64,000 nt of DNA from positions 31,001 through 95,000 of the forward strand of contig RPFO01001837.1 of NCBI GenBank assembly GCA_009746045.1, read 5' to 3'. The notes under the pieces were generated by a model. The model did no database searches. It worked only from the letters and a program-made list of their open reading frames with translations, and was not told the origin of the DNA. Made by a program: the position numbers and the translations under genes. Origin of the DNA: Mesostigma viride. Its lineage: Eukaryota > Streptophyta > Mesostigmatophyceae > Mesostigmatales > Mesostigmataceae. Positions 1,763 through 33,900 of the stretch are shown one piece after another. Each line of letters begins with the position of its first letter. Position 1 is the first letter of the stretch.

Positions 1763-2325
1763 CTTGAGCCTGCACACATCCCTGAACCCTGGAGGGTGCC
1801 CCCAGGGGTGTGTAACGTAGCTGCTAGTGACGGCAGTGAGGGGCAGCCCCATGCTCTAGTGATAGAGCCTATTGGACACGATGGGGCAAGCTTGGTTACC
1901 ACAGAGAGTATGCCAGCTGTAGCTGCAGTGGTTACTCGCCAACGTGCCCGCCATGGCGGTGCTGAGCCTGAGGTAGGACCTGGTGATGTGGACCCAGGTG
2001 GATCTCAGAAGCATTCTGACCGTGCAGGACTGGCACAGGATGGTCAGGATGAGGATAGGGCTGGAGACAGTCTGACAGGCACGACCCTGGTGCCTCCTGT
2101 ACATAAGGGATCTGTACATACCTTGAGTGCTAATAATGACAATAAAAGGTTTTCTCTCTTGTATGACATTGCCTCAAGGTTGCATACCATGTTTGGCCAT
2201 GCAGCTCAGTCTTTGCAAGTTGCTAGACGGCTGGGAGGAAGTGAGTTGTACTCCATCTGCCAACAGGTTGCTCAAGCTTGCAAGTGCAGGCTAGTTGCTA
2301 GAAAGCCCAAGCAGTCTCATGCCAG
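1763..2325 (+). pseudogene. pol: Copia copy A pol, N-terminal fragment (integrase zinc domain)
   Basis: In frame with gag after a single TGA. It encodes a low-complexity linker and then the HHCC-type zinc domain of integrase (HTMFGH, then CQQVAQACKC). It is cut at 2325 by the gypsy element; the pol sequence resumes at 13048. The open frame runs on into the gypsy LTR to 2446, but that tail is not copia. Confidence 0.85.
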
Positions 2326-3465
2326 TGTCACGGACGCGCGCTATATGTCATCCGGGCGCCCACTATGCACAAGACCGGTGACGTGCGCAAGGAATTTGTC
2401 TTCTACGCATTTTCGACAAAGGCTAGTGACCGGGGGGGGACACTAGCACTTGCAGCATAAGAGCGGACGAAAGTGTACGTGCACGCGCGCCGGGCCAGGC
2501 ACAGCTGGGCGCGCAGCACTGACTTGAGCGGACGGCAGCACAAGTGTGCAGCGTCGAGAGGATCATACGCGTGTTAGTGGACAGCTGGAGCTGAAGCTGG
2601 ACTGCTGGACTTCAACAGCGCCGAGGCTATTGACAGGCCAGGTGTCTTTGTGGTGTAGAATAGCGGGTCAACGTTATGAGGACTGGACAGAAAATGGAAA
2701 AGGACAATTTGCGGTGCGGAGCCAGATCGCTGGAATGAATGCGAAATCGCTGGCAGCCCTAAAAAGGGATTTCTTCTAGAAAGGAACGATTAGACGCAAT
2801 GTTTGCTGGGCCACTCACACGCAAGGTGTGAGCGTGCAGATTGTCTGAAGGATATTATGCTTCGACCTTGCTGGACGTGACTCAATGTCGGACATTCCCA
2901 GGGACAGAAATGCCGGAGCCTCTAGGAGATGAGATCGGCAACAGGGTAGCAATTTAGATTTGTCGGGATGCCTTCCTGCTTTTGTTGGCATGTGTGGTAG
3001 AAAGCCAGGACGGCAACTGGAATGCGGTTTCTATTCGCATGGTTCAGGCAGCAAGATAGTTTTGGCATTCCTGGCTGGACTGACAAGTGTGGCGTGTGTC
3101 ATGCGTGTGGCATGACGAATGGTTTGGTTCATAGTCGAAGAGGACTCTCACGCAGCGTGTAGTCTCTTCGAGTCTCTCGTTAGTGGCCTTCGTGTTTCTC
3201 CCTTTCCTTGGGAGCAAGGCCGGTAGCATGTCATGGAGCGCTGCCTAACTGCGGGCTCGTGAGCATGGAGTGCATCGATATTGAGACTATCAACGTGTTG
3301 TAATTGTATTAACTTTCTCAATAAACTCCGCATGTGCGGCTTCATCATCAGACTGTGCAAAGTATGTGTTTTGAAAGCATTATTCTATAGCAGGGGAGGC
3401 AATAAGGTGGTTATCAGGCACGAGGGACAGTTCCTTGTCCTCGGCTGAGAGCCCTCCTTTCTTTA
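2326..3465 (+). repeat. Gypsy left LTR (repeated part)
   Basis: This 1140-bp block matches 11778-12914 almost perfectly and starts TGTCACGG next to target-site CCAG. The true 5' LTR may extend to about 3675, where TTGACA would mirror the TGTC start; that last part has no counterpart at the right end. A canonical AATAAA polyadenylation signal lies at 3320-3325. Confidence 0.85.
3320..3325 (+). promoter_or_regulatory. Poly(A) signal AATAAA in gypsy LTR
   Basis: AATAAA lies about 1 kb into the LTR and is repeated at 12769-12774 in the right LTR. The position suits 3' end formation of the element transcript. Functional use is inferred. Confidence 0.4.
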
Positions 3466-3733
3466 CTCGAAGAGACTACCCGGTAGTCTGCTTCCTTCTG
3501 TTCGAAGCCAAGACGTTGGCTTTAGTGTTTAGCAACCATCAGCAGTACAGGGAACGGCCTGGCTGACAGTTTGTAAAGGAAGTGTCTTGAGACAGATTTT
3601 AAGAAAATAGAACTAGCCAGAATTTGCTGGCTCTTGTCTTTTTCTGGCAGGCTAGTCGAGTCGTTATCCTTGACACCTGTTATAAAGCCTTTGGTTGTTG
3701 CTTCTTCTCAGCGAAACCTAGGCTTGTTGGTTC

Positions 3734-5568
3734 TTGTTTTGCCCATCGGTCAGCTGGTGCATGCCACTGACGCGAGCGCAGACTCGAGCCATGGCAGATG
3801 CAAATAGAGCAGATGCCGACACGTCCGCTCCGGGGTCGAATGGCGGGATTCCTCCCGCCGTACCCGCAGTGGGTGAGAGTCGCGACCAAGAAGCGCCGCT
3901 GAGTATGGTGGCGCTGTTCGCGCAGATGCAAGCGCAGATGCAGCAACAGTCGCAACAGTTGCAGCAGCAATTGGCGCTGCAGATGCGGGAAGTGACCGAC
4001 AGATTGGTGGCCGTAGAGGGTCGTCATCTGCAGTCCACACCATGGGACGGGCAGGCATCGATGCCGGGCCCCAGTGGTGTTGCCGCGGAGCCGAGGGAGC
4101 GGGACCAGCCGCCAACCTCAGGTAATGCGGCGGGAAGGGCTTCGATGGAACCGGGGGTTTTGGCTGGGTCGCTAACCCAACACGACTTGCTTGGTGAGGC
4201 GGATGGTCAGCCACGGGGCGAGTATACGCTGGCGCCCAGGCGCCTGCCTTTCGATCAAGCGCGAGACGGATTGCACGAGGAGAACGGGGCAGGGCTGGCG
4301 CGCGCGATGGACCCACACAGGGTGCACCAGGACGCATGCTGCCAGGCGGGGCCTCAATTCCGTTTGGGCGAGGCGGTGGGGCGCTGACCGGCGGGTCGAC
4401 TGCACGGTGGTCAAGTGTGCCAATCGGGCGCATTCCGCCCATGGAGGACATAACCACGCCGCTGGCTTTCCGAGTACGGGAGGCAGCACGACCAAGCACG
4501 CTGGCGCAGGGACGCGCAGCTCAGCGACCGCCGGAGGATGCCGATGGGGTGCAGTACCCGCAAAGGGTGCGCCTCATACCGGAAGGCGCGAAGATGCCCA
4601 CCCTACCACGGGTGGACATGCGCGAGAAGTTCTCCACAACCGGCAATCTGGCCACGCTGGCGCAGGCCTACAACGCGTACAAGTCATGGATTGATCTGCA
4701 ATACATGACTACGCAAGGCGCTGTAATGCATGAGTTTGTGATGAACAACATGCATTTTTTCTTTCACGGCCTTACGCTGAGGCGAGTGGCTAGGCTGGTG
4801 GAGCAGTGGAGAGAGGTCTCGCTGTACACGCGTCACACGGACGTGTGGTTCGGCTTCGACGGGCGTGGCCAGCCCGACTATGACAACATCATGTATGGTG
4901 TCGACCCTGCCGAGGAACTGTGGGGCCTCCTTCGCCAGGAATACCCGGTGGAGACCATCAAGGCAGAGCGTGAGTGGCGCAGTTTCAAGATAGCCGAGGG
5001 TGAAACCCCGGAGCAATCTTACGAGCGCCTCATGGAGTTCGCCGGCGAAGTGGAGGACTGGTCCGAAAAGCTGGCGTGTCAGAAATGGCTGCAAGCGCTA
5101 GGCTCCAAGGAGATGGAGCTGCCCACGCCGCCCAACGGCCAGCCGTGGCGATTGCGGTCACTGTGCATTGAGGTCAGGGCCATGATGCGACGACACGCGC
5201 AAGGCCGGATCTCGGTAAGCACGGTGGTGGCCGAGCTGCAGGCCAAGGTCGACGCGCTGACCAAGGCCAAGTCGGGTGAGTCGTCTGCCACAAGACAAGC
5301 GCGCCCGCAAGGCGGCCACGGTGCTAGCAGGAACCAAGGGGGGTCTCGCAACGCCTCATCGCATGATGCAACCCAGGGTAACGCCGCTGGCGGCAACAAA
5401 GACGCTGCCGCCCCGACGCGAGCTGGGGGGGCACGTCCTCACAGACGGGTACTAGGACGGATGCGCGCAAATCGGGCTGCTTCCTTTGCGACAAGGATGG
5501 GCACCTTAGTCGCGAGTGTCCAAGCCGCTGCACGAAGCCGCATGGGGCAGACACGAAGTGGCACCTGA
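3734..5568 (+). CDS. gag: Gypsy Gag, in two overlapping frames
   Basis: The first frame (3734-4387, likely real start ATG 3791, MADANRADADTS) encodes a Gln-rich coiled-coil segment (QMQAQMQQQSQQLQQQL) and a Pro/Gly linker. The second frame, one base back, is read to 5568. It carries a retrotransposon-gag-like capsid region (around EEWRSF/WRSFKIAEGETPEQSYERL, roughly 4960-5040) and a basic Ser/Asn-rich tail. The zinc knuckle CFLCDKDGHLSREC (5478-5520) lies in a third frame, another base back, which is the pol frame. Both steps are -1, the second at a run of seven G near 5428. They may be programmed frameshifts or decay. The capsid builds the particle and the knuckle binds RNA. Confidence 0.7.
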
Positions 5569-8500
5569 TGAACAAGTGTCCAGCCGCGGGCATCAAGACG
5601 GTCCACTTCGCCGAGATGGCGGGCAAGACCGACTCGATGGAAGCCCAGGTGGCTGCCATCAAGCATGGTGAGGAGGCGACGGCGCCCCCCAACCAATTCG
5701 AGACGGTGTACCGGGAGGACCCATTCTGGGCGCCCATGCCGGGTGACGTCGAGATCAACGCTGCGGAGGCTACCAAAGGCAAGCAGGCACGCAGCCCGCT
5801 TTCTTTTCAGCAGGCACCCATGTTGCCTGCCGGGCAGTTGCCCGCGTCCTTTTCCATGCCGCTGGCTGGGGTGCAATCTGCTTTTGAGCATGCGAACCCT
5901 GCTGGGCTGGAGCAGCGTAGGCGATTGGCGCCTGTGTACCCAATGCCGTTCATTGTGGACGTACCCATGTTTTCAGCACGGCAGGTGGTCGACACCTTCG
6001 GGCAGAAGGGGGTTGAGTGGCTGGGGTCGGTTGTGTCCGAGATCCAGTTGTTCGCAGATGGGCATGATGTGCGCACCTTGCGCAATTCTGAGTCCGTCAC
6101 CTACGGGCGCCAGCCGGTAGAAGCCGCAGTGCCCGTGGTGCAAGCGGGAGTGGTCAGCACAAGTAGCCAGCAGCGCACTAGTGCAGTCCCCCAGGTTCCC
6201 ACGGTGGTTCCATACCCCAATGGTGAGCCGTCCATGGCGTTCCAAGCAGTTGGAGCCTGTGGAGATGTATGGAGCGACATGGTGACATGTCCGTTGGTTG
6301 GCGCAGTCAAGCTTGATAGCGGTGCTCAGCCGCTAGTCATCAGCACGGACTTGGCCACCATGCTGAACCTGACCTACGAGAACGGTGGCTTAGTGGAAAG
6401 CCCCGTGTCTGTGTCAGGTTGGCAGGGTCCGGCTAGTAAGCCGTACGCTATGACGGCGGTTAAAGTCAACGTGATTTTCAATCCGTTGCGCGCCTCTAGC
6501 ATGACCACCGTGTCCGCGTATGCGCTGGTGGTCAACAAGTGTGGATATTCCGCACTACTCGGGGTGGATGTCCTTGCTCGCGCCATGGTTCAGGTGGACT
6601 ATAGGGCGGAGGAGGCATCTTACATCCCTGATTGGGATGGGGCTGGCCTGAAGCGGGCCAGCGTGCCGGTCTCATGCTTCAGTTCTTCAGCCGGGGCTGC
6701 ACGCCTCAACCCTTCCGCGGCTGCGGGCGTGGTGGAGGTCAGCATGGTGGAGGTACGGGCGGCGGGCTCATCGGCGTGGGACAAGCATCGGACGGTGCTG
6801 CCCCAGCCAACGGCGAGCATTGCCAAGATGCGCACGCAGTGGTCGCTGGATGCTGTGACGTCCACGCGGCAGCTGGCTATGCGCAAGCGGGTAACTGAAG
6901 CCGTCATCACCATTCCTCAGATGGCCAGCCATGGCCTCACTTTGCTGCAACCGGGTGTCTCGGAGGCCCAAGGTAATTTTTCTGCTGCAATCTTACCGCA
7001 GGCCCCTGATTTTGCCAAGGGTGCGGTAGTGTTGGAACTGTTTGCGGGGATCGGAGGGGGCATTGCAGGCTTTTTGGCCGCAGGCGGCGTGTGCCGTAAA
7101 CTCATCGCGGTAGAGCCATCGCACAAGGCGCGTCAGGTGTACTTCAGTCACTGTGGCGTGTTGTCGCGAGAGTATCCCGCGCAGTTTCCGCCATCAGCAT
7201 GGCGTGACCCGTTTGGGGAATGTCCTCAAGATATCCGAGCCATCGGTGAGGTGCAGGTGCAGCAGTTGTTGCGCAGGCATCATGCCATCGACTTGGTAAT
7301 TGCGGGTTGGGAGTGCCAGGGCCTGAGCCAGGCAGGGCAAGGGCGGGGGCTAGCCGATCCGCGTAGCGCGCTGTTCTGGGAACTGTTGCGTGTGGTGGGA
7401 CTGTTGCAGTCGCGTCAGCCCCATCCGCCTGCGTATCTGTTTGAGAACGTTGTGGCGGGTGACAGCCCACATCAGGCGGTGCGGGAGGACTGGGCTACAA
7501 TCGTGGCACTCCTGGGGGAGCCCATCGTGTGTGACAACGCAGGGCTGGGTGGGCTCACGCATCGTTTGCGTGCCTATTGGACCAACGTGGCGTGTGCGAC
7601 CGATGTGCAGGCGGTCTTGGGGGCCGTAGCAAGGCAGCATCCGAGTGTGTCTGCGGAGGTAGCATTGCCTTCCCACCTAGTCACGCAGAAGGTGGATAGC
7701 GAGGATCGCCCACCGTATGCACGCGTCAACCGGGTCGGGAGCCCCATGTGTGCACTGCCGACCCTGGTCAGTTACCAAGGGTCGACAGCATACCGTGATC
7801 GGGGTAAGGGTCTCGTTTGGGACACTACCACCGGTCTGTTGGTGCAGCCACCCGCAGAATTTCGTGAGGCCAGCATGGGTTTTCATGTCGGGGCCTCGGC
7901 GCTGCCGGGCGTGCTCGAGAGTGAGCGCTGGTCTTTGATAGGCCAGGCTATGTCGGTGTTGCAGGTCGGGTATGTGCTGCTTGCATCGGTTGCCGTGCGC
8001 CAGTCTGGGGGGGCGTCCCCAGCCAATCCGCCTCAGCAGGTTGAGGCGCGCGCAGCCAAACTGAAGCGCCCTGCAGCGACGGGGACTTCATCAGCATGGG
8101 GGTGGCGTCTGCGACAGGTGTGGACTATCATTCTCATGACCGCCCTGCTGACCAGCACCGTGCTGGCCGGCGAGCCCACGCTGCATCGGGTAATACACCG
8201 TGCGGCACGCGAGGCTCCGGCGGTGGGTGTCACACCAGGCGTGGCAGCCTTTTCCTTGTTCCACGACGATGCGGCTAGGGCGCCGCATCTTGAGGCACAT
8301 GCGGTAGCTGTGGGTGATCCCGCGGATACGCACCCCTGGGCTATTGGCGAACACCTTTCTGATGCGCAGCGCTCAGCCATGCTAAAGTGGCTAGGCACTG
8401 CAAGGGGGGCCTTCGCTTTCACAAGTGATGAACTGGGGTGTTTCAATGGTGGGACCATGCGTGTTCCATTGGACACTGACACCCCTTTGTTCCGACGCCA

Positions 8501-11500
8501 GCATCGCCTGAGTCAGGCCGAGTTGGATTTTGTAGCCGAGCAATGCAAGGAGTTAGAGGATGCCGGTATCATCAGGCAATCTTCCTCCAGCTATGCCGCT
8601 GCCGTTGTCGTTGCGCCCAAGAAGGACGCTATCACCGGGGCATGGACGGGTATGCGCATGGCCACCGATCTGCGGTTGCTGAATGCACACACACCCGTGG
8701 ACCGTTACCCCATGCCACGTGTGGATGATGTCCTGGATAAGATATCTCCTCATGTGAAGTTTGTGTCCTCGCTGGACCTGCGTAGCGGCTTTCATCAGAT
8801 CGCAGTTGCGCCGGAGGATCAGCGGAAGCTTGCATTCTGGGGGGGCGGCAATTTGTATGAGTGGGTGCGCATGCCCTTTGGGCACCGCAACGCTAGTGCT
8901 GTTTTCCAACGAGCTATGGACAAAGTGCTTGCAGGTCTTCCTTTCGCCGCTTGTTACATTGATGATGTAATCGTCTTTAGCGCGACATTTGAGGAGCACC
9001 TGGCGCACTTGGAGCAGGTTCGCTTGGCTCTCGAGGAGCATAATATGCGGCTGCACCCTGAGAAGTGCAAGTTCGCCCAGCGGACCCTCTCATTCCTTGG
9101 TCATCAGATTGTGCCGGGTGGCCGGACGCCTGATGCCGCCAAGGTCGAATCCATTGTGCAGGCCGCCGTACCCACGGATGTCTCAGGGGTGCGGGCGTAT
9201 TTGGGTTTGGCTGGCTATTACCGAGGTTACATTGAGAACTTCAGCAGCAAGGTGAAGCCCTTGACCGAGTTACTCAAGAAGGGGTGCGTGTGGGCGTGGG
9301 GTCCCGCACAGCAACGCGCCATCGAGACAATCAAGCAGGAGCTCACGTCGGCCCCGATTCTGCGCGCCCCTGACTATGCTTTGCCGTTTGTGTTATATAC
9401 CGACTGGTCCAAGGTAGGACTGGGTGCGGTCTTGGCGCAAAAGGATGGTGATGGGCGCGAGCACGTTATTGCTTATGCTAGTCGCAGCAACAACCCAGCG
9501 GAGAGCCGGTATTCTTCCTATGAGGGGGAGGCACTGGCTGTGGTGTGGGCCATCAAGCACTTTCGCCCGTATTTAGTTGGGCGCGTGTTTACTCTGGTGA
9601 CAGACCACCAGCCGCTTCAGTGGCTAATGACCAACACCAACCTGACGGGTAAGCTCGCCCGATGGGCCATGATTATCCAGGAGTACCACATGACCATTGT
9701 GCATCGGGCCGGCAAGGACCATGTCAACGCCGATGTGCTATCCCGATACGCCATGCCTACCACTGTTGACCACACTGGAGCCCGGGCCATGGGTGCCGAG
9801 GGCTCGTCGGGTTCTGTGGTCTTTGTGAACGCTGCTGGGTATGCGGCCGACGATGAGGAGGAGGCGTGGTGGCGCAGTGTCGAGTACTCTGTGGCGGACT
9901 TCGGCATCAGCGACGACCCGGTGCGGCCGTCGCCATTCACGCCATCCAAAGCTGTGTGCGCTATGGAAGAGGGTAGGTCTCTGTCCTTTGACATTGATCC
10001 TTCTCTGCAGCAGCTGATCGCTGTGCAGGCTCTCTTAGCGCGTAGCTCTCTTGCTGATTGCTACACCGCTGATATCTGGCTAGATGGTCGAGTTTTGGAG
10101 CAAGTGCAGGGTGCTGTCTTGACTCCTACTCCAGTCGATTGGACTCCTGCTCAGAAGGCGACGGAGTTGAACAGGGTGCAGCACAGGGCTGCAACCTATG
10201 GTTGGGAAGATGGGGTTTTGTACAAGCTGTTGGGCAAGCGTAGGGTGGTCGTCCCACCGCCTGACAAGCGCGTTGCTATAGTGCAGGCGTACCACGAGCG
10301 GTATGGTCACTTGGGTGGCAATCGCACGCTCAGCCTCGTACGGACCAGCTATTGGTGGAATAACATGCGACACACAGTGGCCCAGGTAGTGGCCAGCTGT
10401 GTCCCGTGTGCTCGAACCAAGGCTAACTTTAGCGCAGATCATGGTGCCAAGGAGCTGATGTCGCTTCCCATCAAGGGCTTGTTTTATCGCTGGCACGTCG
10501 ATCTGTGCGGGCCGTTTCAGGAGAGCCCTGACGGCAACCTCTATGTCATGGTATGCGTGGAGAGCTTTAGCAAATGGGTTGAGTTGATCCCCATTGCTGA
10601 CAAGCATGCCGCTACCACAGCGAAGCATTTTGCAGACATCATCACCAGGTTTGGGGCTCCCGCGGAGGTAGTCACGGACCAGGGTGGTGAGTTCAGGGGT
10701 GAGTTCCAGGAGTTGCTGGATGGATGTCTTATTGATCACCGTCGCACTTCTCGGGAGCATCCTCAGGCCAATGGTTTGGCTGAGAGATTGGTGCAGACCG
10801 TCAAGCAGGCGCTGCGCAAGTGGAGCCTGCAGGTGCCGGAGTCGGCCAGGTGGGATCGCGAGTTGGCATGGATTGCCATGGGTTATCGCATGTCTCCCCA
10901 GGAGTCTCTCGCTACCTTCTCCCCGTATTTCCTTCTGTTCGGGCGTAATCCTCTTTTGCCTACGGAGGCACAGGTTGCGCACCCCGAACCCATGGCCTTC
11001 GACAACGCTCAGCAATTTTTGGTTGAGGTGCTGGCCAGGGCAGAGACTTTTAAGAAGGTCATGCCCATCGCGATGAACAACTTGTTCATTGCTCAGCACA
11101 GGGACTCCCTGCGTTACGCTCAGCGCCGGGGGGGCGCATACATGGCTCGCCAGCTGCGGTTTAGGCCAGGGCAGTATGTTTTCCTGCGCACTCAGCTGAA
11201 GCACACTTTGGATGTGGAGGCGGGGCCCACCATTTTGCGCATTGTGGCTATCAAACCATCGGGAGTGGCAATTTTGGAGGGCGCCGACGGGAGCCGTACG
11301 ACAGACAACCTCAGCAATCTCAGTCCCTGCTCACTGCCCAATTTGGTCCACGACCTCCAACCGCACACATCTCGCCGAGTCAAGGACGCCCAGTGTCAGG
11401 TTTGTCACCGGGTCGATCAGGCGGAGTCCATGTTATTGTGTGATCAGTGTAACTGTGGTTGGCACATGCAGTGCTTGCAGCCCGTGGTCACCAGCATTCC

Positions 11501-11606
11501 GGAGGGGGATTGGTTTTGTCCAGTGTGCACCGCTGCGCAGTTTACCTCCCGCAGCTTGACTGCGGTCACCGCTGCCCTTGTCTTGGTACGATCGCTGTCT
11601 TCGTGA
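5568..11606 (+). CDS. pol: Gypsy Pol polyprotein: protease, C5-DNA methyltransferase, RT, RNase H, integrase, PHD finger
   Basis: 2012 residues, no stop; the frame is already open from about 5440 and ATG 5568 may not be the real start. Domains: aspartic protease (DSG at 250; LLGVDVLA near 330); C5-cytosine methyltransferase about 485-812, with motif I LELFAGIGGG, motif IV GWECQGLS (catalytic Cys 583; usual PCQ is ECQ), motif VI ENV (626-628), HRLRAYW and a C-terminal GQA motif; a hydrophobic stretch at 851-868; reverse transcriptase with YIDD (1130-1133); RNase H (Asp 1279); integrase with HHCC zinc domain and D1645/D1704/E1739; GPY-like region; PHD finger 1943-1987 (C4HC3). It should copy and integrate the element. 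The DNMT could methylate new copies and the PHD could bind histone H3 tails to guide integration; both roles are inferred. Confidence 0.95.
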   Translation: MNKCPAAGIKTVHFAEMAGKTDSMEAQVAAIKHGEEATAPPNQFETVYREDPFWAPMPGDVEINAAEATKGKQARSPLSFQQAPMLPAGQLPASFSMPLAGVQSAFEHANPAGLEQRRRLAPVYPMPFIVDVPMFSARQVVDTFGQKGVEWLGSVVSEIQLFADGHDVRTLRNSESVTYGRQPVEAAVPVVQAGVVSTSSQQRTSAVPQVPTVVPYPNGEPSMAFQAVGACGDVWSDMVTCPLVGAVKLDSGAQPLVISTDLATMLNLTYENGGLVESPVSVSGWQGPASKPYAMTAVKVNVIFNPLRASSMTTVSAYALVVNKCGYSALLGVDVLARAMVQVDYRAEEASYIPDWDGAGLKRASVPVSCFSSSAGAARLNPSAAAGVVEVSMVEVRAAGSSAWDKHRTVLPQPTASIAKMRTQWSLDAVTSTRQLAMRKRVTEAVITIPQMASHGLTLLQPGVSEAQGNFSAAILPQAPDFAKGAVVLELFAGIGGGIAGFLAAGGVCRKLIAVEPSHKARQVYFSHCGVLSREYPAQFPPSAWRDPFGECPQDIRAIGEVQVQQLLRRHHAIDLVIAGWECQGLSQAGQGRGLADPRSALFWELLRVVGLLQSRQPHPPAYLFENVVAGDSPHQAVREDWATIVALLGEPIVCDNAGLGGLTHRLRAYWTNVACATDVQAVLGAVARQHPSVSAEVALPSHLVTQKVDSEDRPPYARVNRVGSPMCALPTLVSYQGSTAYRDRGKGLVWDTTTGLLVQPPAEFREASMGFHVGASALPGVLESERWSLIGQAMSVLQVGYVLLASVAVRQSGGASPANPPQQVEARAAKLKRPAATGTSSAWGWRLRQVWTIILMTALLTSTVLAGEPTLHRVIHRAAREAPAVGVTPGVAAFSLFHDDAARAPHLEAHAVAVGDPADTHPWAIGEHLSDAQRSAMLKWLGTARGAFAFTSDELGCFNGGTMRVPLDTDTPLFRRQHRLSQAELDFVAEQCKELEDAGIIRQSSSSYAAAVVVAPKKDAITGAWTGMRMATDLRLLNAHTPVDRYPMPRVDDVLDKISPHVKFVSSLDLRSGFHQIAVAPEDQRKLAFWGGGNLYEWVRMPFGHRNASAVFQRAMDKVLAGLPFAACYIDDVIVFSATFEEHLAHLEQVRLALEEHNMRLHPEKCKFAQRTLSFLGHQIVPGGRTPDAAKVESIVQAAVPTDVSGVRAYLGLAGYYRGYIENFSSKVKPLTELLKKGCVWAWGPAQQRAIETIKQELTSAPILRAPDYALPFVLYTDWSKVGLGAVLAQKDGDGREHVIAYASRSNNPAESRYSSYEGEALAVVWAIKHFRPYLVGRVFTLVTDHQPLQWLMTNTNLTGKLARWAMIIQEYHMTIVHRAGKDHVNADVLSRYAMPTTVDHTGARAMGAEGSSGSVVFVNAAGYAADDEEEAWWRSVEYSVADFGISDDPVRPSPFTPSKAVCAMEEGRSLSFDIDPSLQQLIAVQALLARSSLADCYTADIWLDGRVLEQVQGAVLTPTPVDWTPAQKATELNRVQHRAATYGWEDGVLYKLLGKRRVVVPPPDKRVAIVQAYHERYGHLGGNRTLSLVRTSYWWNNMRHTVAQVVASCVPCARTKANFSADHGAKELMSLPIKGLFYRWHVDLCGPFQESPDGNLYVMVCVESFSKWVELIPIADKHAATTAKHFADIITRFGAPAEVVTDQGGEFRGEFQELLDGCLIDHRRTSREHPQANGLAERLVQTVKQALRKWSLQVPESARWDRELAWIAMGYRMSPQESLATFSPYFLLFGRNPLLPTEAQVAHPEPMAFDNAQQFLVEVLARAETFKKVMPIAMNNLFIAQHRDSLRYAQRRGGAYMARQLRFRPGQYVFLRTQLKHTLDVEAGPTILRIVAIKPSGVAILEGADGSRTTDNLSNLSPCSLPNLVHDLQPHTSRRVKDAQCQVCHRVDQAESMLLCDQCNCGWHMQCLQPVVTSIPEGDWFCPVCTAAQFTSRSLTAVTAALVLVRSLSS

Positions 11607-11620
11607 TGGGGCCGGTCGCC

Positions 11621-11632
11621 AGCGAGGGGGGG
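11621..11632 (+). other. Candidate polypurine tract
   Basis: AGCGAGGGGGGG lies just after the pol stop codon, as a plus-strand primer site would. However, 145 bp, not zero, separate it from the TGTCACGG start of the right LTR, which is unusual. Confidence 0.4.
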
Positions 11633-11775
11633 AATCATGGGACAGGTCCTCGCCCACCCCACAGGGCATGCAGTTAAGGCAGGCACATCAGCTCAGCTCA
11701 TTTGGGTTTTACCAAATTAAGCTGAGTGGCCAGCCGCCATGGTGGCGCCGGAGATTGTGGCACGCAGACGCGACA
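11633..11775 (+). repeat. Direct repeat S1 upstream of right LTR
   Basis: 143 bp from AATCATGGGACAGG to ACGCGACA, repeated at 12914-13047 on the far side of the right LTR. The second copy lacks nine bases (a slip between two CAG triplets). S1 is followed by GC and then the LTR start TGTC, giving GACAGCTGTC. This resembles an LTR-LTR circle junction. S contains TGGCGCC, a sequence common in tRNA-primer binding sites. Confidence 0.8.
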
Positions 11776-11777
11776 GC

Positions 11778-12914
11778 TGTCACGGACGCGCGCTATGTCA
11801 TCCGGGCGCCCACTATGCACAAGACCGGTGACGTGCGCAAGGAATTTGTCTTCTACGCATTTTCGACAAAGGCTAGTGACCGGGGGGGACACTAGCACTT
11901 GCAGCATAAGAGCGGACGAAAGTGTACGTGCACGCGCGCCGGGCCAGGCACAGCTGGGCGCGCAGCACTGACTTGAGCGGACGGCAGCACAAGTGTGCAG
12001 CGTCGAGAGGATCATACGCGTGTTAGTGGACAGCTGGAGCTGAAGCTGGACTGCTGGACTTCAACAGCGCCGAGGCTATTGACAGGCCAGGTGTCTTTGT
12101 GGTGTAGAATAGCGGGTCAACGTTATGAGGACTGGACAGAAAATGGAAAAGGACAATTTGCGGTGCGGAGCCAGATCGCTGGAATGAATGCGAAATCGCT
12201 GGCAGCCCTAAAAAGGGATTTCTTCTAGAAAGGAACGATTAGACGCAATGTTTGCTGGGCCACTCACACGCAAGGTGTGAGCGTGCAGATTGTCTGAAGG
12301 ATATTATGCTTCGACCTTGCTGGACGTGACTCAATGTCGGACATTCCCAGGGACAGAAATGCCGGAGCCTCTAGGAGATGAGATCGGCAACAGGGTAGCA
12401 ATTTAGATTTGTCGGGATGCCTTCCTGCTTTTGTTGGCATGTGTGGTAGAAAGCCAGGACGGCAACTGGAATGCGGTTTCTATTCGCATGGTTCAGGCAG
12501 CAAGATAGTTTTGGCATTCCTGGCTGGACTGACAAGTGTGGCGTGTGTCATGCGTGTGGCATGACGAATGGTTTGGTTCATAGTCGAAGAGGACTCTCAC
12601 GCAGCGTGTAGTCTCTTCGAGTCTCTCGTTAGTGGCCTTCGTGTTTCTCCCTTTCCTTGGGAGCAAGGCCGGTAGCATGTCATGGAGCGCTGCCTAACTG
12701 CGGGCTCGTGAGCATGGAGTGCATCGATATTGAGACTATCAACGTGTTGTAATTGTATAAACTTTCTCAATAAACTCCGCATGTGCGGCTTCATCATCAG
12801 ACTGTGCAAAGTATGTGTTTTGAAAGCATTATTCTATAGCAGGGGAGGCAATAAGGTGGTTATCAGGCACGAGGGACAGTTCCTTGTCCTCGGCTGAGAG
12901 CCCTCCTTTCTTTA
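11778..12914 (+). repeat. Gypsy right LTR (repeated part)
   Basis: 1137 bp matching 2326-3465 with a 2-bp and a 1-bp indel and one clear substitution. AATAAA is at 12769-12774. After 12914 the sequence departs from the left LTR and becomes repeat S2. Confidence 0.88.
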
Positions 12915-13047
12915 ATCATGGGACAGGTCCTCGCCCACCCCACAGGGCATGCAGGCACATCAGCTCAGCTCATTTGGGTTTTACCAAATTAAGCTGAGTG
13001 GCCAGCCGCCATGGTGGCGCCGGAGATTGTGGCACGCAGACGCGACA
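12914..13047 (+). repeat. Direct repeat S2 forming the right end of the gypsy element
   Basis: 134-bp copy of 11633-11775. It ends ACGCGACA, immediately followed by target duplication CCAG and copia sequence, so the integrated end of the element lies in this repeat and not in normal LTR sequence. Confidence 0.8.
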
Positions 13048-14477
13048 CCAGGACTCCTATTTTGCAGCCAGGCCATGTGCAGGTAGATATTCAGAGAATC
13101 AGGGGTTTGAAGCTGCTGGTGGCAGTGGACAGATATACCAAGTACAAGACCCTAGAGATCCTGCCTGACATGGAGAAGCCTACATTGATTGCTGCTCTGA
13201 AGTTGACAAGGAGCAGGTACCCTGGGTTGGAGTTGTTGCAGTGTGACATTCAGTTTGAGTGCTGTGAGAACCTGCCAGAGTTTCCAGAGTTGCTGATTAC
13301 ACCCAGGGAGAGCCACGGCCAGCAAGGGGTGGTGGAGAGAGCCATCCAAGAGATCAAGACTGTGCTGCTGGTGGAGAGGATTCCAAGGACGTCATCTGCC
13401 ATTGTGACATCTGCATGGCTACGTTCTGTGGAGGATAGGCTGAACCTCAGGTCTCCCAATGATGTTCTTTGGTGACATTGCCATCAATCCTCTTATGCTG
13501 CATACCAGGATGCTGCCAGCTGATGCTGAGCAGGCATGGAAGGAGAAGCTAGAGGCCAAGTTCCTCAAGCTGAGGCAGAAAGACAAGGGCTGGAGTGTCC
13601 TAGAACATAACGTTGGACAACGGGTTGTTGTGTGGAAGGAACCAAGCTTTCCAGGGAAACGTGGCAGCTGGCATGATGGGGTGGTGACCCGAGTAGAAGC
13701 CGCTGGCCATAAGTGCTGGGTGGCCATTGATGGCTCCCAAGCAGTGCACCGTCTGTCCTGGTCAAAGATCCGTCCCCGGGGAGGTAATCAAGGAGACCTC
13801 TTCCAGGTGCCCGCTGGTGTACAAGGCGGGGGTGACGTGGAGCTTCCTGATCAGGGTGCTACAGCTGTATCGAGCCCTCAGGGTGACCCTGGCCCGGCCC
13901 CTGGGGTACCTTCACATACGGTGGTTGGGCAAGCAGGCGGACAGGCTGCACCTCCGGAACGGCCCGACACCAGGCCTAGGGGTGTGCATCTATCAGATAT
14001 TGTACAGGCTTTGCAAAGAGCCAAGAAGGAGCCTAAGGTGTCCAAGCTTGTCCAGTTGGATGAACCTGAGGTAGCTGCCATGGAGATAGATACCAATGCA
14101 CAGGTTTCTGTCATGGGACCTCAGCATACAGGAGAACTGCTGGTCGGAGAACCAAGTTGCCCCTGGGTGTCTGATTTCAGTGGTAGGACGCATCTAAGGG
14201 TGTTGGGAGAGGTTACTGCCCCTGTCATGGGTGTGGATGTGACCTTCCTTGTCCTAGAGGACTATGATGGCCCTGTGATTTTGGGTCAGAATTTTCTGGG
14301 CAATCCTGGGATTTCTATCAGAGCGACAGCTCTGAAAAGAGATGGCTGGGGGATGATTCCCCTAGAAAATTTCAGGACAACATTTCCAATCAGGTGCAGG
14401 GTCAAGCCGGTCAAGGGTGTAAAATGGGATGAAGGGGAGGTGCCCCCAGCAGCCAGTTTGGTGATTCCTGTGTTGCA
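13048..14477 (+). pseudogene. pol: Copia copy A pol, integrase core and protease-like region
   Basis: Matches 31522-32946 of copy B. It encodes the integrase catalytic core (VQVDIQRI, QCDIQFEC, VVERAIQ), an SH3-like integrase tail and the protease-like domain with the DTNA motif and VILGQNFLG. A 4-base insertion near 13460 shifts the frame, so the integrase is broken. The frame that starts at 13459 is then open to 14502. At 14477 the CACTA unit interrupts; the reading frame resumes at 36349. Confidence 0.85.
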
Positions 14478-14533
14478 CACTATACTTTTCGTCCGAGGGT
14501 AGTAAAAAGGATCCGAGGCGTAAATTACGAGGT
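14478..14533 (+). repeat. CACTA left terminal inverted repeat
   Basis: 56 bp, exact reverse complement of 36293-36348. It begins CACTA next to copia sequence. Confidence 0.92.
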
Positions 14534-21049: not shown

Positions 21050-21350
21050 ACTACTTAATTCATTTATTAAACTCATGCCCCCATTAGGGAGTCAAGGAGC
21101 ATTAGCTAACCCCGATTAATTAATTAATTAATTAATTAAACACGTGCTCCTGTTGGGGAGTCACGGAGCACCGAAGTGCTTTTAATCCCTGTGTGTGCAC
21201 AACAGGAGAAAGGGCAGAGACCCCCAGTCTCCTTCATGCCTAAGGCATGCCACAGCTGCATTCGGGAACGCTAGCTAAACGGACACGCTAACGATCCGGC
21301 AATCTGTGGGTGCAATAAGACCCATGTGAGCATGGCATAACACTAGGAGC
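21050..21350 (-). repeat. Dispersed repeat related to 44600-44810
   Basis: Read on the minus strand it contains GGGGGTCTCTGCCC, GTGCACACACAGGGATT and GTGCTCCGTGACTCCC in the same order as the plus strand at 44660-44800. It is joined to a (TTAA/TAAT) tract at 21116-21140. Both copies keep a peptide like VHTQGxKALxCxVTP, so it may derive from a coding transposon, perhaps a non-LTR element. Confidence 0.6.
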
Positions 21351-21414
21351 GTGGGCAAGTAATCTCATCATAGCCAGGACGTAGCATGGCTGTACTAGGA
21401 CTATACCCCGATCA

Positions 21415-22520
21415 ATGGATGGATGGATGGATGGATGGATGGATGGATGGATGGATGGATGGATGGATGGATGGATGGATGGATGGATGGATGGATGGAT
21501 GGATGGATGGATGGATGGATGGATGGATGGATGGATGGATGGATGGATGGATGGATGGATGGATGGATGGATGGATGGATGGATGGATGGATGGATGGAT
21601 GGATGGATGGATGGATGGATGGATGGATGGATGGATGGATGGATGGATGGATGGATGGATGGATGGATGGATGGATGGATGGATGGATGGATGGATGGAT
21701 GGATGGATGGATGGATGGATGGATGGATGGATGGATGGATGGATGGATGGATGGATGGATGGATGGATGGATGGATGGATGGATGGATGGATGGATGGAT
21801 GGATGGATGGATGGATGGATGGATGGATGGATGGATGGATGGATGGATGGATGGATGGATGGATGGATGGATGGATGGATGGATGGATGGATGGATGGAT
21901 GGATGGATGGATGGATGGATGGATGGATGGATGGATGGATGGATGGATGGATGGATGGATGGATGGATGGATGGATGGATGGATGGATGGATGGATGGAT
22001 GGATGGATGGATGGATGGATGGATGGATGGATGGATGGATGGATGGATGGATGGATGGATGGATGGATGGATGGATGGATGGATGGATGGATGGATGGAT
22101 GGATGGATGGATGGATGGATGGATGGATGGATGGATGGATGGATGGATGGATGGATGGATGGATGGATGGATGGATGGATGGATGGATGGATGGATGGAT
22201 GGATGGATGGATGGATGGATGGATGGATGGATGGATGGATGGATGGATGGATGGATGGATGGATGGATGGATGGATGGATGGATGGATGGATGGATGGAT
22301 GGATGGATGGATGGATGGATGGATGGATGGATGGATGGATGGATGGATGGATGGATGGATGGATGGATGGATGGATGGATGGATGGATGGATGGATGGAT
22401 GGATGGATGGATGGATGGATGGATGGATGGATGGATGGATGGATGGATGGATGGATGGATGGATGGATGGATGGATGGATGGATGGATGGATGGATGGAT
22501 GGATGGATGGATGGATGGAT
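21415..22520 (+). repeat. (GGAT)n microsatellite, about 276 units
   Basis: 1106 bp of pure GGAT. Because four is not a multiple of three, every plus frame reads the same MDGW repeat and the minus frames read IHPS; these are not genes. Assembled length may differ from true length. Confidence 0.99.
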
Positions 22521-22770
22521 GTCAGGCTTGTCTTACATGATGCAGTGGAACTTTGGTGCTGGAGGGTTAATTGTGGCCCGGTCTGGTTTAGCTTCAGTGC
22601 TCTCATGGCGGCCTTCATTTGTAATTATTTGAATGCATGCCCATTGGGCCATGCATAGTGTATATTTTTTACGCATGCACGCCCATTATGTATCGCTGGG
22701 TCCATCCCATCAATGCTTGTTTATTGCCAGGTCTGGTGTAAGTAAGTTAGTGCTATCTAGTCTACAAAAT
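22521..22770. other. No gene recognised
   Basis: Sequence with CATGC-rich segments between the GGAT tract and the next repeat; nothing identifiable. Confidence 0.35.
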
Positions 22771-28776: not shown

Positions 28777-29454
28777 ATGGTGCAGGAGGAACAACGGCAG
28801 CAGGATTTCCGGTTTCGGCAGTCTGCTGGGGGTTCGATTTCTCCTGAATTACGCCGTGTCGTTCGGGATCTATCTTTGTTGCTTGCAGATCGTCCGCCTG
28901 TAAATCGCAGCTTCGTGCAATTCGTCGACGACCAGGTCGAAGATTGGGAGCGAATTCTGCGACACGTACAAACCATCGTCATTCCGGAGCACCGGAGCAT
29001 CGACGACCTTGAGCAGGAGCTTCACGGGTTGGTCGGCATCCAGACGGTGATTACTGCAGTAGCAGAGCGAGTGCGGACGGAGTTGGCAGCAAGGCGAGGC
29101 GAGGTTGCGGAGGCAGCTGGCGCAGGGCGACACGAGTTTGTGCCGACAGTAGCGGGCGCGGGAGTACCACGTGCTTTCGCAGGCGGCATCGGCGACGAGG
29201 GTGTTGCAGCGGGCCAGTTAGGCGTGAACGACGCGGAGCGGAGCATCACAGGCGGCTTGCAGAGGTCGGGGCGACAGCGGAAGCCATCGCCGGAGGACAC
29301 GCGCGACAAGAGTCGGCAGGTTTCCAGAGCGAGTAAGAGTTCCTTTTCAGGAGCTGCCCCGCCCCTTCGCGTTCGTGTGACGCGTTGGGAGGAGTTTGCA
29401 CCTCTTGGGTACGATAGTGACCTTGAGGTAGGGCAGGGGGTGTCGCTGGGCTAG
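28777..29454 (+). pseudogene. Copia copy B upstream ORF (ORF1), truncated by frameshift
   Basis: From ATG 28777 it encodes 225 residues: a helical N-terminal region (LRRVVRDLSLLLADRPPVN; DQVEDWERILRHV; GIQTVITAVAERVRTELAAR), then a Gly/Ala/Arg-rich linker and APLGYDSDLEVG. Two bases are missing near 29432 relative to copy A, causing the stop at 29452. The undamaged protein would run to the equivalent of 29692, about 305 residues, with an acidic Ser-Asp tail. I recognise no domain. The helical, capsid-like character and its position before gag hint at a structural role. Confidence 0.55.
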
Positions 29455-29794
29455 GCGACGAGACACTTGGCGACCACGAGGTGCCAACGTACAATCCGCG
29501 AGGGCCAACGACGGGTTGTCACCTGTCTACTTTACCAACGGTGACGATTCAGTCATCGCGGGCCGACAGCGGGTCGACGACGGCGCAGCAGGTAGCAGGG
29601 TACCAGAGCTGATTGTGGTGAGCGACAGCGACGACGACAGCGACAAGGAGAACCAGGACGCGCCTGGGGCCAGCCGTGGTGGTCTTGCCTGAGTGGTAAC
29701 ACTTGGCACTTTCTTTTCTTGTTCAGTAGCTTATATTGCTTTAATTGCTGCTTGGCCACTTGGCTGGCTGTAGCAGATCTGAACAGAGGCCATC

Positions 29795-30963
29795 ATGGAG
29801 GATGGAGCTATCAACCAACCAGCGGGCTTTATGGACTTCGGGCGGCGCGGCGCTGGGCTGGATGGACGAGATGGACGCTATGGACGCGGGGGCGGCCAGG
29901 CGCTGGGAGACCAGGCTGAGGTGCCAGATAATCAGAGCCAAGGATCGCAGGGCGGGCAGCACGCGCCAGCCGCAGATCAAGCGGCGCCCAAGCGACCAAC
30001 TGTTGCTGAGGGGTACGCGGTGCTAGGCCAGTTTCAGTCCATCAAGGACAATTGGCAGCCCCGGGATGCTGAGAGGATGTTAGAGGACATGAACTTGTAC
30101 ACGGAGATATACAACGGTGACAAGCTTCGCATCCTGGCGTCTAGTGCCTACATACGGCAGTCGGCGAGGCGGCTGTTCAAGTTTGTTCGGGAGCGACACG
30201 CGGCGGGGGACACCTGGACGGCGTTTATGACGCGACTCAGGTCGTTCCTGAGTGACAAGAGGACCATAGATGGGACCCACCTGAAACAAGAATACCTGGA
30301 CTACAAGCCCATCAAGGGGCAACTAGTGGTCCACGCCTTTGAAGACTTCGTCAAGCTGAGGGAGGACGCCATGGCCAAGGGCTTCTTCGTCGCAGATCGG
30401 ATGGCCATGGGCGACTTTCTCAAGTCGCTGCAACTGGATCCGGTCACCATGGATAATGTGACCATCCACATGCGACAGGTCCATGGCTGGGCAGCCATGA
30501 CGGATCAGTTGTATGAGTGTTTCAGCGGCAAGTACGTGGGGGTAAGCGCCCTCGTCAGAATGATGAGGAGGCCACTGAACCCACGGTTAAGTCCATGAGG
30601 GGATCGGGCCACGGGGGCCCAGCGTCCTCGAGAGGGCCTGAGACCTCTTCAAGGGGTCGAGGAAGGTCCAGGAGGGGGCGTGACAGAAGGGCTGGACGGG
30701 GGACCCCGCCGAAGTCGGGACATCCACAGTCCCAGTTTGACTTCAAGAGGGTGGGTGGTCCTCCCAAGGCTGGGCCCAGCAGTGGGACCTCACGGGACAT
30801 CAGTCAGGTGGAATGTTATTTCTGCCAGGGGAAGGGTCACTTCAGGAATGAGTGTCCCTCGTACCTGAGGCAGGAAGGTCAGAGCAAGCCAGCTCAGGGT
30901 GGCAGCAAGGACAAGGCTGGTCCATCCCAGGACAAGGGCAAGGGCAAGGCTGCTGATCATTGA
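29795..30963 (+). pseudogene. gag: Copia copy B Gag, one-base frameshift
   Basis: Same protein as 572-1762. The capsid-like part is open from ATG 29795; loss of one base near 30539 (GTGGGGGTAAG against GTGGGTGGTAAG in copy A) shifts it out of frame at 30598. The zinc-knuckle part continues in the correct frame from about 30517 to the TGA at 30961-30963. The N-terminal repeat is shorter than in copy A. A functional Gag would have to come from another copy. Confidence 0.8.
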
Positions 30964-33900
30964 TTGAGCCTGCACACATCCCTGAACCCTGGAGGGTGCC
31001 CCCAGGGGTGTGTAATGAAGCTGCTAGTGACAGCAGTGAGGGGCAGCCCCATGCTCTAGTGAAAGAGCCTATTGGACACGATGGGGCAAGCTTGGTTACC
31101 ACAGAGAGTATGCCAGCTGTAGCTGCAGTGGTTACTCGCCAACGTGCCCGCCATGGCGGTGCTGAGCCTGAGGTAGGACCTGGTGATGTGGACCCAGGTG
31201 GATCTCAGAAGCATTCTGACCGTGCAGGACTGGCACAGGATGGTCAGGATGAGGATAGGGCTGGAGACAGTCTGACAGGCACGACCCTGGTGCCTCCTGT
31301 ACATAAGGGATCTGTACATACCTTGAGTGCTAATAATGACAATAAAAGGTTTTCTCTCTTGTATGACATTGCCTCAAGGTTGCATACCATGTTTGGCCAT
31401 GCAGCTCAGTCTTTGCAAGTTGCTAGACGGCTGGGAGGAAGTGAGTTGTACTCCATCTGCCAACAGGTTGCTCAAGCTTGCAAGTGCAGGCTAGTTGCTA
31501 GAAAGCCCAAGCAGTCTCATGCCAGGACTCCTATTTTGCAGCCAGGCCATGTGCAGGTAGATATTCAGAGAATCAGGGGTTTGAAGCTGCTGGTGGCAGT
31601 GGACAGATATACCAAGTACAAGACCCTAGAGATCCTGCCTGACATGGAGAAGCCTACATTGATTGCTGCTCTGAAGTTGACAAGGAGCAGGTACCCTGGG
31701 TTGGAGTTGTTGCAGTGTGACATTCAGTTTGAGTGCTGTGAGAACCTGCCAGAGTTTCCAGAGTTGCTGATTACACCCAGGGAGAGCCACGGCCAGCAAG
31801 GGGTGGTGGAGAGAGCCATCCAAGAGATCAAGACTGTGCTGCTGGTGGAGAGGATTCCAAGGACGTCATCTGCCATTGTGACATCTGCATGGCTACGTTC
31901 TGTGGAGGACAGGCTGAACCTGAGGACTCCCATGTTCTTTGGTGACATTGCCATCAATCCTCTTATGCTGCATACCAGGATGCTGCCAGCTGATGCTGAG
32001 CAGGCATGGAAGGAGAAGCTAGAGGCCAAGTTCCTCAAGCTGAGGCAGAAAGACAAGGGCTGGAGTGTCCTAGAACCTAACGTTGGACAACAGGTTGTTG
32101 TGTGGAAGGAACCAAGCTTTCCAGGGAAACGTGGCAGCTGGCATGATGGGGTGGTGACCCGAGTAGAAGCCGCTGGCCATAAGTGCTGGGTGGCCATTGA
32201 TGGCTCCCAAGCAGTGCACCGTCTGTCCTGGTCAAAGATCCGTCCCCGGGGAGGTAATCAAGGAGACCTCTTCCAGGTGCCCGCTGGTGTACAAGGCGGG
32301 GGTGACGTGGAGCTTCCTGATCAGGGTGCTACAGCTGTATCGAGCCCTCAGGGTGACCCTGGCCCGGCCCCTGGGGTACCTTCACATACGGTGGTTGGGC
32401 AAGCAGGCGGACAGGCTGCACCTCCGGAACGGCCCGACACCAGGCCTAGGGGTGTGCGTCTATCAGATATTGTACAGGCTTTGCAAAGAGCCAAGAAGGA
32501 GCCTAAGGTGTCCAAGCTTGTCCAGTTGGATGAACCTGAGGTAGCTGCCATGGAGATAGATACCAATGCACAGGTTTCTGTCATGGGACCTCAGCATACA
32601 GGAGAACTGCTGGTCGGAGAACCAAGTTGCCCCTGGGTGTCTGATTTCAGTGGTAGGACGCATCTAAGGGTGTTGGGAGAGGTTACTGCCCCTGTCATGG
32701 GTGTGGATGTGACCTTCCTTGTCCTAGAGGACTATGATGGCCCTGTGATTTTGGGTCAGAATTTTCTGGGCAATCCTGGGATTTCTATCAGAGCTACAGC
32801 TCTGAGAAGAGATGGCTGGGGGATGATTCCCCTAGAAAATTTCAGGACAACATTTCCAGTCAGGTGCAGGGCCAAGCCGGTCAAGGGTGTAAAATGGGAT
32901 GAAGGGGAGGTGCCCCCAGCGGCCAGTTTGGTGATTCCAGCTGTGTTGCACCCCAGCAGTATTGGCATAACTCACAGGAGCCTTGCTGCACACTCTCCTT
33001 TGACATATGACCAGCTGGTCCAAGAGATGAGCTCGCCTACTTTGTTTGAGGCTTGGAAGCTCGCCTTCTCCAAGGCATTGGAGGAGTGGTTGCAGTTTGA
33101 GTGTGCTGCACCAACAGACAGACGTCCCCCAGCATCAAGGAAGCTTGCTTTGAGATTTGTGCTGAAGAGGAAGGTTGTGGATGAGGTATCAGTGCCCCAT
33201 GTCAGGCCTGTCCTGAATGAGTATCACGGCACGGGGAGTCTGCCAGGAGAGGAGCTATACACGCCAGGGATGCTACACGACACATGGAGAATTTTGCTAT
33301 GTCTCTACGTGGGGTTGCTGAACAGGGGAGCAGCTATGTCATCAGTGCTGCTGGACTTCAAGAGGGCATTTTTAAAATCTGATCCAGAAGTGGCCAGGAG
33401 GGTGTGGAAGCAGGATGAGCCTTACTGTGTTGAGGTGCCTGCCATCTGGAAGCTGGAGCTGCATCAACAATTCCTGGTTATTCTGAAGGGCCTGGAAGGA
33501 CTCAGGTCGAGCCCAATCATCTGGAGACTCACGCTGCAGGAAGCTCTGATCAGTGAGTGTGGCTTGAGAGTGTCTTCAGTTGATCCCTGTTTGCTGCTGG
33601 CCCAATGGGAGGGTCTGCCAGTGTATGCTAGTTTGCATGGAGATGATCTGCATTTGCTAGCCCCCACGACCTGGCTGAAGAAGTTTATTCCTGTCATCAG
33701 TGGCAAGTTTTCACTGGGCAAGGAGCTGTGGCAGGAGCCCAACAAGCCTGTAGTGTTCTGTGGAATGCAGGCTACCCTGTTCAGGAGGGACGGGGAGTGG
33801 AGTATCAGGCTTCAGGCTGGAGGAGATTATAAACAGACCATTGTGAAGGCCTTGCCAGAGAAGATCACCCAGGCTGCAGGACCTGAGTTGAGAGGCATGT

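Follow-up and report, generated by a model that had tools for sequence, protein, structure and literature searches.

A Dnmt3 enzyme within the Pol of a Gypsy retrotransposon has already been published as KnitGypsy-Dnmt3 of Klebsormidium nitens (de Mendoza et al. 2018; PMC5890265). According to the relevant sections of the same paper, SymbioDIRS-Dnmt3 enzymes methylate CG in yeast, and tests of KnitGypsy-Dnmt3 and SymbioLINE were inconclusive. Self-priming of long terminal repeat (LTR) retrotransposons has likewise been described (in part of PMC5006619). Retroviral integration from a palindrome lying off the DNA ends was raised in 1984, was not substantiated, and was later re-argued by some, as outlined in parts of PMC1180852 and PMC4372172. 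Here we describe a retrotransposon of Mesostigma viride that unites these themes. It occupies positions 2326-13047, on the plus strand, of a 64,000-nucleotide stretch of contig RPFO01001837.1 (positions 31,001 to 95,000; assembly GCA_009746045.1), which we call the window. The element belongs to a young Ty3/Gypsy family whose integrase, as we judge most likely, cuts the sequence GACA|GC|TGTC in the left LTR of the cDNA, after which host end joining would seal the cDNA ends inside the provirus.

The repeats of the element are divided into two parts, A and B, and the layout is A-genes-B-A-B, with all features reading in the plus direction. The left terminal repeat, A1 (2326..3464), lacks part B and is followed directly by a predicted primer binding site (PBS; 3465..3479). 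Toward the right end, a predicted polypurine tract (PPT; GCGAGGGGGGG, 11622..11632) directly precedes B1 (11633..11775), the start of the LTR as defined by the cDNA. Two bases, GC, separate B1 from A2 (11778..12913), and B2 (12914..13047) completes the element. Spanning the B1|A2 boundary is the palindrome GACAGCTGTC (11772..11781), which occurs only once in the window and which we propose as the internal integrase site. The left repeat is thus without the final ~134 bp of the right repeat, a second copy of which precedes the right repeat. Two complete LTRs do not stand at the provirus ends, since the left one has no B. A first-pass annotation of the window had spoken of near-identical LTRs; A1 and A2 are indeed nearly equal (1 mismatch and 4 gap columns over 1140 columns), but the missing B and the overall layout A...B-A-B do not fit that description, and neither the division of the repeats nor the insertion route it implies had been noticed there. 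Its proposal of recent activity is borne out by this near-equality together with 40 scored near-identical places in the genome.

The limits 2326 and 13047, as first annotated, proved exact to the base by blastn against the empty site. The empty site is readable because a second copy of the target element sits in the window (29228-32951): position 2325 joins 13048, and the target sequence CCAG (31522-31525 in the empty site) is duplicated on the left (2322..2325) and right (13048..13051) of the insertion.

A stretch of A1 (3159..3173), the predicted RNA 5' end and self-primer, is complementary to the PBS. The resulting 15-bp duplex has an energy of -25.9 kcal/mol, compared to -12.9 for the best other 17-mer in A1. 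Since the predicted self-priming site directly follows A and the predicted PPT directly precedes B, the cDNA is expected to read BA...BA. The provirus ends, as fixed by the duplications, are instead A...B rather than B...A, and the outer ends of resolved copies are TGTC.../...GACA (TG...CA). Because the provirus ends are A...B, and because the A|B joint (12913|12914), which we read as an end-to-end joint, resembles ligated cDNA ends, the integrase most likely uses the palindrome internal to the LTR.

In the mechanism that we propose, the RNA would start at the self-primer and prime its own reverse transcription, as in Tf1, and textbook reverse transcription would yield a BA-PBS-genes-PPT-BA cDNA. 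On each strand of the palindrome the integrase would cut after CA, the two cuts being staggered by two bases. From established integrase chemistry, a double cut of GACA|GC|TGTC would generate two CA ends with 2-nt 5' overhangs, as retroviral 3' processing normally does. By sequence comparison, the solved structure closest to the element's integrase is that of PFV integrase, an enzyme that cleaves palindromic LTR-LTR junctions (PMC1180852, in part). Both new CA ends would attack the target 4 bp apart, and the two cDNA ends would then be ligated together by host end joining within the new provirus. The Dnmt3-like domain is predicted to act in the nucleus, methylating the cDNA while it is free or once its ends are joined; the plant homeodomain (PHD) finger at the end of Pol is predicted to read the histone H3 tail at the target.

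We searched the genome (440 Mb) with positions 2326-3600 and scored the best 40 of 682 candidates, ranked by left-end match. A1 ran straight into the PBS region in 40/40 scored matches, one of which begins at A position 5. Deletion of B from the left LTR was rejected as an explanation: in retroviral replication both LTRs are rebuilt from a single template, and a provirus without the left B would for this reason not breed true by end integration; moreover, the left B is absent from all 40 scored copies. We examined 39 places, comprising the window and 38 fetched stretches, with C1588 left out. The DNA before A1 was not that of this element family in 36 of them, was PPT-B in 2, and was another family's repeat plus B in 1; the A-B-A-genes-B form of the family was found at none of the 39 left ends. 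Both ends were resolved at 25 distinct loci, the window counted, and a 4-bp duplication was present at 22 of these: 17 of 20 A-genes-B-A-B loci, both loci that end after B1 (C224 and C1912), both internally truncated loci (C1 and C1215), and the composite locus C133, where GGGG is duplicated. The duplications of C1491b, C1505 and C133 were read by eye from the flanks.

We next consider an end-integrating Gypsy element of which one copy or founder was rearranged, such that its 5' LTR lost B and a stray B came to precede its 3' LTR, and was then copied. Although a single founder can be copied many times, the joints described below differ among loci, each of which is flanked by its own duplication, and a second family of other sequence displays the same layout. 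We regard this explanation as barely credible.

The A2|B2 joint was exactly CTTTCTTT|AATCATGG in 14 of the 20 A-genes-B-A-B loci, running from the last base before the PBS to the first base after the PPT. The remaining joints were diverse. That of C1413b contains one extra G, as if priming had begun one base earlier in the PPT; that of C2134 is slightly altered; and that of C2192 is missing 114 bp of the end of A. In C2133, about 32 bp of the end of A is turned back around 13 nt of primer sequence, after which follow 264 bp of the pol end, the PPT and B. In C1468, about 90 bp of foreign DNA is inserted, while the joint of C1239 was left unscored. In the truncated loci C1 and C1215, integrase or reverse transcriptase (RT) sequence abuts B, or no more than the final ~15 bp of B. 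The A2|B2 joint therefore looks, from its sequence, like a ligation of cDNA ends, and the variety of joints is what end joining of such ends would leave.

These joints also bear on DIRS-like copying, in which an internal B-A would template completion of the ends and A2-B2 would be inherited in each cycle. The A-B-A-B layout is that of PAT and DIRS elements, and the same wording has been applied to KnitGypsy-Dnmt3 (in the portion of PMC5890265 that treats its repeats). However, the element encodes a DDE integrase, a tyrosine recombinase was not found by Pfam at E values up to 0.1, insertions are flanked by 4-bp duplications, and the A2|B2 joint lies at the PBS and PPT boundaries, is variable, and can contain foreign filler. 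We accordingly think DIRS-like copying highly improbable.

The foreign DNA in C1468 derives from a second family, which we observed at L104, L105 (C133) and also L005. This family consists of a 1039-bp A', a 310-bp internal stretch and a B' of about 90 bp. No Pol match was found in the stretch of it that was read, and this short family is probably moved by the enzymes of another element. Its A' is immediately followed by a 15-nt perfect self-complement, its B' is preceded by GTGGGGGGG, and it bears the identical palindrome. Because the second family, although different in sequence, repeats the arrangement of PBS, purine tract and palindrome, the two families keep one layout. The C1468 insert is the reverse complement of B', differing at a single base from the copy in C133, and it spans the sequence from the second family's cDNA start to ...GCGACA, the proposed cut. 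Its last base is shared with the end of A, so the cut end is placed with an uncertainty of one base. At C133, a copy of the window's family retaining both natural cDNA ends (B-A-PBS... and ...PPT-B-A) sits between A'2 and B'0 of the second family, with the GGGG duplication outside; the interior of this copy was read only at the A1-PBS match and at the pol end.

Whether the palindrome is cut before or after the cDNA ends are joined is a separate question. In a circle-first pathway, the cDNA ends would be ligated (2-LTR) or recombined (1-LTR), and the integrase would open the resulting circle at the B|A palindrome and insert it. Such a pathway was at one time suggested for retroviruses. It accounts for the same joints; C224 and C1912, which carry a single repeat, also fit it, and the truncated C1 and C1215 would represent circles of trimmed cDNA. 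Retroviral integrases cut palindromic 2-LTR junctions in vitro (as reported in parts of PMC1905944 and PMC1180852), and HIV-1 2-LTR circles have been proposed as an integration reserve (in part of PMC4372172). On the other hand, a circle carrying two equal palindromes would be expected to yield the A-B-A-genes-B form in about half of repeat-bearing insertions, whereas 20 of 20 display the other form. In addition, the B' captured in C1468 possesses one natural cDNA end and one cut end (to within one base), and a linear molecule must therefore have been cut. We view circle formation first as a possible but less favored route. We favor a cut close to the left end of linear cDNA, since the left palindromes alone were used (20 to 0) and a cut B' piece was captured; that the cut is made while the cDNA is still linear is, in our estimation, somewhat better than an even proposition.

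Several observations weigh against integration from the internal palindrome, or limit how far it can be pressed. All evidence is drawn from integrated copies. Copy classes were sampled, as the best 40 of 682 left-end matches, rather than counted. Three resolved loci have no clean duplication (C998a, C1500 with CCTC/GCTC, and C1239). Of the 39 places, 14 stand outside the locus count: seven with right ends that were incomplete or not recovered (C1613, C473, C1956, C1413a, C1579, C1491a and C1106), three in tandem contexts (C1690, C111a and C111b), and four that duplicate others by the same or nearly the same flank (C378, C229, C592 and C140). The PBS, PPT and RNA start are predicted from sequence. 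The left-LTR palindrome alone was used at the 20 A-genes-B-A-B loci despite the same site being present in the right LTR, a bias that would be easier to understand if the cut were made near the end of a linear cDNA. Finally, the roles of the methylase and PHD finger are assigned by homology only, and the CpG observed/expected ratio is 0.85 in the element, compared to 0.69 in window positions 14501-64000 (satellites included).

The coding region is organized as follows. A Gag-like open reading frame (ORF) of 410 aa (4336..5568) gave no Pfam match, and an additional ORF upstream of it begins at ATG 3791 in another frame. The Gag stop and the Pol start overlap as TGATG at 5566-5570, which suggests translation by termination-reinitiation. 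The Pol ORF (5568..11606; 2012 aa) is open throughout in the window copy. Within it lie the Dnmt3-like C5-cytosine methyltransferase (MTase) domain (7008..8063; Pfam DNA_methylase, 9e-11), with the motif IV Cys at residue 583; RT (8616..9110; RVT_1, 1.6e-27), with CYIDD at 8952-8966; RNase H (9372..9686; RT_RNaseH, 2e-38); integrase, comprising an H2C2 zinc domain and a DDE core (10254..10763; Integrase_H2C2, 9e-17, and rve, 1.5e-10); and a C4HC3 PHD finger (11394..11528; PHD, 1e-8). The integrase has a D,D-35-E arrangement, the final Glu lying slightly past the end of the Pfam match. For protease (PR), Asp_protease_2 matched weakly (E 0.1, under the cut-off), yet an LDSGA motif is present. 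The first-pass list of Pol domains is therefore upheld above cut-off for DNMT, RT, RNase H, integrase and PHD, and by a weak profile and a motif for protease; its assignment to Gypsy agrees with the PR-RT-RNaseH-IN order of Ty3/Gypsy and the DDE integrase, and FAGIGGG, Cys 583 and ENV lie where it had placed them. Its unbroken 2012-codon frame, in contrast, holds for the window copy and not as a trait of the family. Among seven copies read (six fetched plus the window), three share a length difference of one base that breaks the frame between DNMT and RT, the frame is open there in the window copy and three others, and a second one-base difference, within RT, is found in two.

Pfam, profile and fold comparisons each match the methyltransferase region (Pol residues 485-812) to C5-MTases, as annotated earlier. 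Motifs I, IV (Cys), VI (ENV), VIII, IX and X are all present. Motif IV reads GWECQ, with Glu replacing the usual Pro, as it does in 34 of 87 aligned domains, the window's included. The nearest profile and fold are those of DNMT3A/3B, with a TM-score of about 0.5 to a model of mean pLDDT 66.9 that is unreliable over domain residues 212-311 and 335-352; a single-sequence search places plant DRM first. The closest DNMTs are from M. viride itself (67 and 63%, over part of the domain), with Closterium more distant, consistent with a streptophyte alga as host. A DNMT phylogeny, which the first-pass annotation had proposed as a check, groups the element domains with human DNMT3A and separates them from bacterial and phage enzymes (100/98), the DNMT3A row being long and pieced from fragments. 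This tree excluded 9 domains without the motif IV Cys and included 23 rows of the class ii defined below (every fourth plus four hand-picked). The domain also matches phage families in PHROGs; in tblastn, 15 of 50,697 phage records matched, those listed (10) at 36-39% across some 100 residues; and a scan of viral contigs with the DNMT profile found 10 loci, the 6 of which that were put in the tree group with two bacterial enzymes. A recent phage origin was rejected, since tree, profile and fold all place the domain with DNMT3.

We next compared the Pol with its relatives. A protein search with residues 486-1990 found 227 proteins, 120 of them among the matches listed. A DNMT domain is present in 87 of the 134 proteins compared (window Pol included), and a PHD finger in 79 of those 87. 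Named DNMT-bearing relatives are from Haematococcus, Pleodorina and Chlamydomonas, and the majority are metagenomic. The DNMT precedes RT (class i) in three Pols, namely the window Pol, P0016 and P0044; P0016 shares the order of the window element from the Gag zinc knuckle through PHD. In 78 of 87 the DNMT lies between RT/RNase H and integrase (class ii), and 6 of 87 are without a scorable RT. In an RT plus integrase (IN) tree built by a quick method, the 42 sampled DNMT bearers and the PHD-bearing P0098 formed one group (SH-aLRT 100), while the division into two domain orders was weak (85 and 67). The sample comprised 39 of 78 class ii Pols with RT and IN (every second), the 3 class i Pols and 41 others; P0008 and P0013 were left out, Haematococcus and Pleodorina were in the sample, and Chlamydomonas was outside it. 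The simplest reading of these sequences is a single ancient acquisition of the DNMT, with a later shift in its position. P0015 also has a long tail after its PHD (residues about 1600-1881) with a DPWAGTG...TSPW pattern; this gave no Pfam match, and we take the pattern to resemble an adenine methyltransferase.

Of 19 fetched genomic stretches extending to the PHD, 18 carry it with identical DNA, the exception being C1413a, which is interrupted within the finger; C1 and C1215 are cut short before it. The notion that other copies keep both domains thus holds for copies and relatives generally and fails for these three. A one-off fusion was rejected on the basis of the other copies and of 86 related Pols with a methylase, 78 of which have a PHD. 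The first-pass annotation had singled out the pairing of DNMT with PHD as the most notable feature of the element; this was overrated, as the pairing is common among green-algal and metagenomic relatives. A Pol that unites methylase and PHD is thus widespread in this Gypsy group, not an oddity of a single copy.

The earlier suggestion gave these domains two roles: the DNMT would methylate newly made element DNA, and the PHD would guide insertion toward particular chromatin. Both roles are compatible with use of the internal palindrome. The methylase motifs that were checked are intact, and the motif IV Cys is kept in 78 of 87 aligned domains. The nearest fold is that of DNMT3A/3B, and the nearest solved relatives of the PHD include BAZ2B, Lid, BAZ2A, CHD4 and ATXR5, several of which are readers of the unmodified H3 tail. 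Against this stand the CpG ratio, which is not depleted in the element and so leaves no sign of long-standing CpG methylation, and the 9 of 87 domains that have lost the motif IV Cys, indicating that catalysis is dispensable in some lineages. From sequence, we would put these roles at a little short of an even chance. The Cys-less domains are those of P0042, P0043, P0063, P0068, P0070, P0075, P0080, P0090 and P0100, with Chlamydomonas and Pleodorina among their named sources.

Surrounding DNA was as follows. The host of the insertion is another LTR-type element (1-2325 and 13048-14478), with a Gag bearing a CCHC knuckle. The second copy of this host element, to which 29228-32951 belongs, extends over about 28-39.5 kb; its 3' part is partly duplicated, and it contains three copies of the repeat. 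Large short-period satellites (21250-22660, 47666-49160 and 51130-52125) give rise to long mechanical ORFs on both strands.

Neither a Gypsy element with DNMT and PHD nor an LTR retrotransposon integrating via an internal palindrome was found in our searches of the open-licence PMC literature. Like self-priming elements of the Tf1/sushi type, the window element has a predicted PBS complementary to part of the left repeat, where the RNA is taken to begin; unlike in those elements, priming sets LTR ends that differ from the provirus ends. This trait is seen as self-complementarity in two families and as primer sequence captured in C2133, the RNA 5' end being predicted. A palindromic CA..TG site away from the DNA ends, serving as integrase substrate, recalls the debate over retroviral circle junctions and internal attachment (att) sites, in which Panganiban and Temin (1984) and Ellis and Bernstein (1989) reportedly took part. 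For retroviruses, entry from an internal site has long counted as a dead end; linear cDNA ends are the accepted substrate and some argue for 2-LTR circles (as set out in parts of PMC1180852 and PMC4372172), whereas the window family points to an internal site. It is a natural family that apparently uses an internal palindrome, and its fossil joints record primer, PPT, cut site and end joining; integration from an internal palindrome thereby becomes a testable question.

Elements of the DIRS/PAT type, SymbioDIRS-Dnmt3 included, share the A-B-A-B split direct repeats and often carry a DNA methyltransferase (described in parts of PMC4157794 and PMC5890265), but theirs is a tyrosine recombinase, whereas the window element has a DDE integrase and 4-bp target duplications. 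Plain membership in DIRS was rejected: the split repeats are present, but rve and Integrase_H2C2 were found and no phage-integrase-type Pfam match was obtained. KnitGypsy-Dnmt3 resembles the window element in its Gypsy domains, its Dnmt3-type methylase inside Pol and its DIRS-like repeats; it differs in that the main text of its description contains no occurrence of PHD and, in the sections concerned, gives no mechanism for the repeats (PMC5890265). Compared by description, common descent of the two is likely. That the whole Dnmt3-Gypsy clade of green algae, Klebsormidium's included, gave up end integration in favor of a palindrome inside the LTR, such that every provirus is inside out and has its cDNA ends sealed by host joining midway through the right repeat, seems to us equally easy to believe or to doubt. 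If true, the recurrence of split repeats together with DNMTs in DIRS, Symbiodinium, Klebsormidium and the window element would point to a stage at which free DNA in the nucleus is marked by the methylase, and the mechanism proposed here may explain the DIRS-like repeats published for the Klebsormidium Gypsy element.

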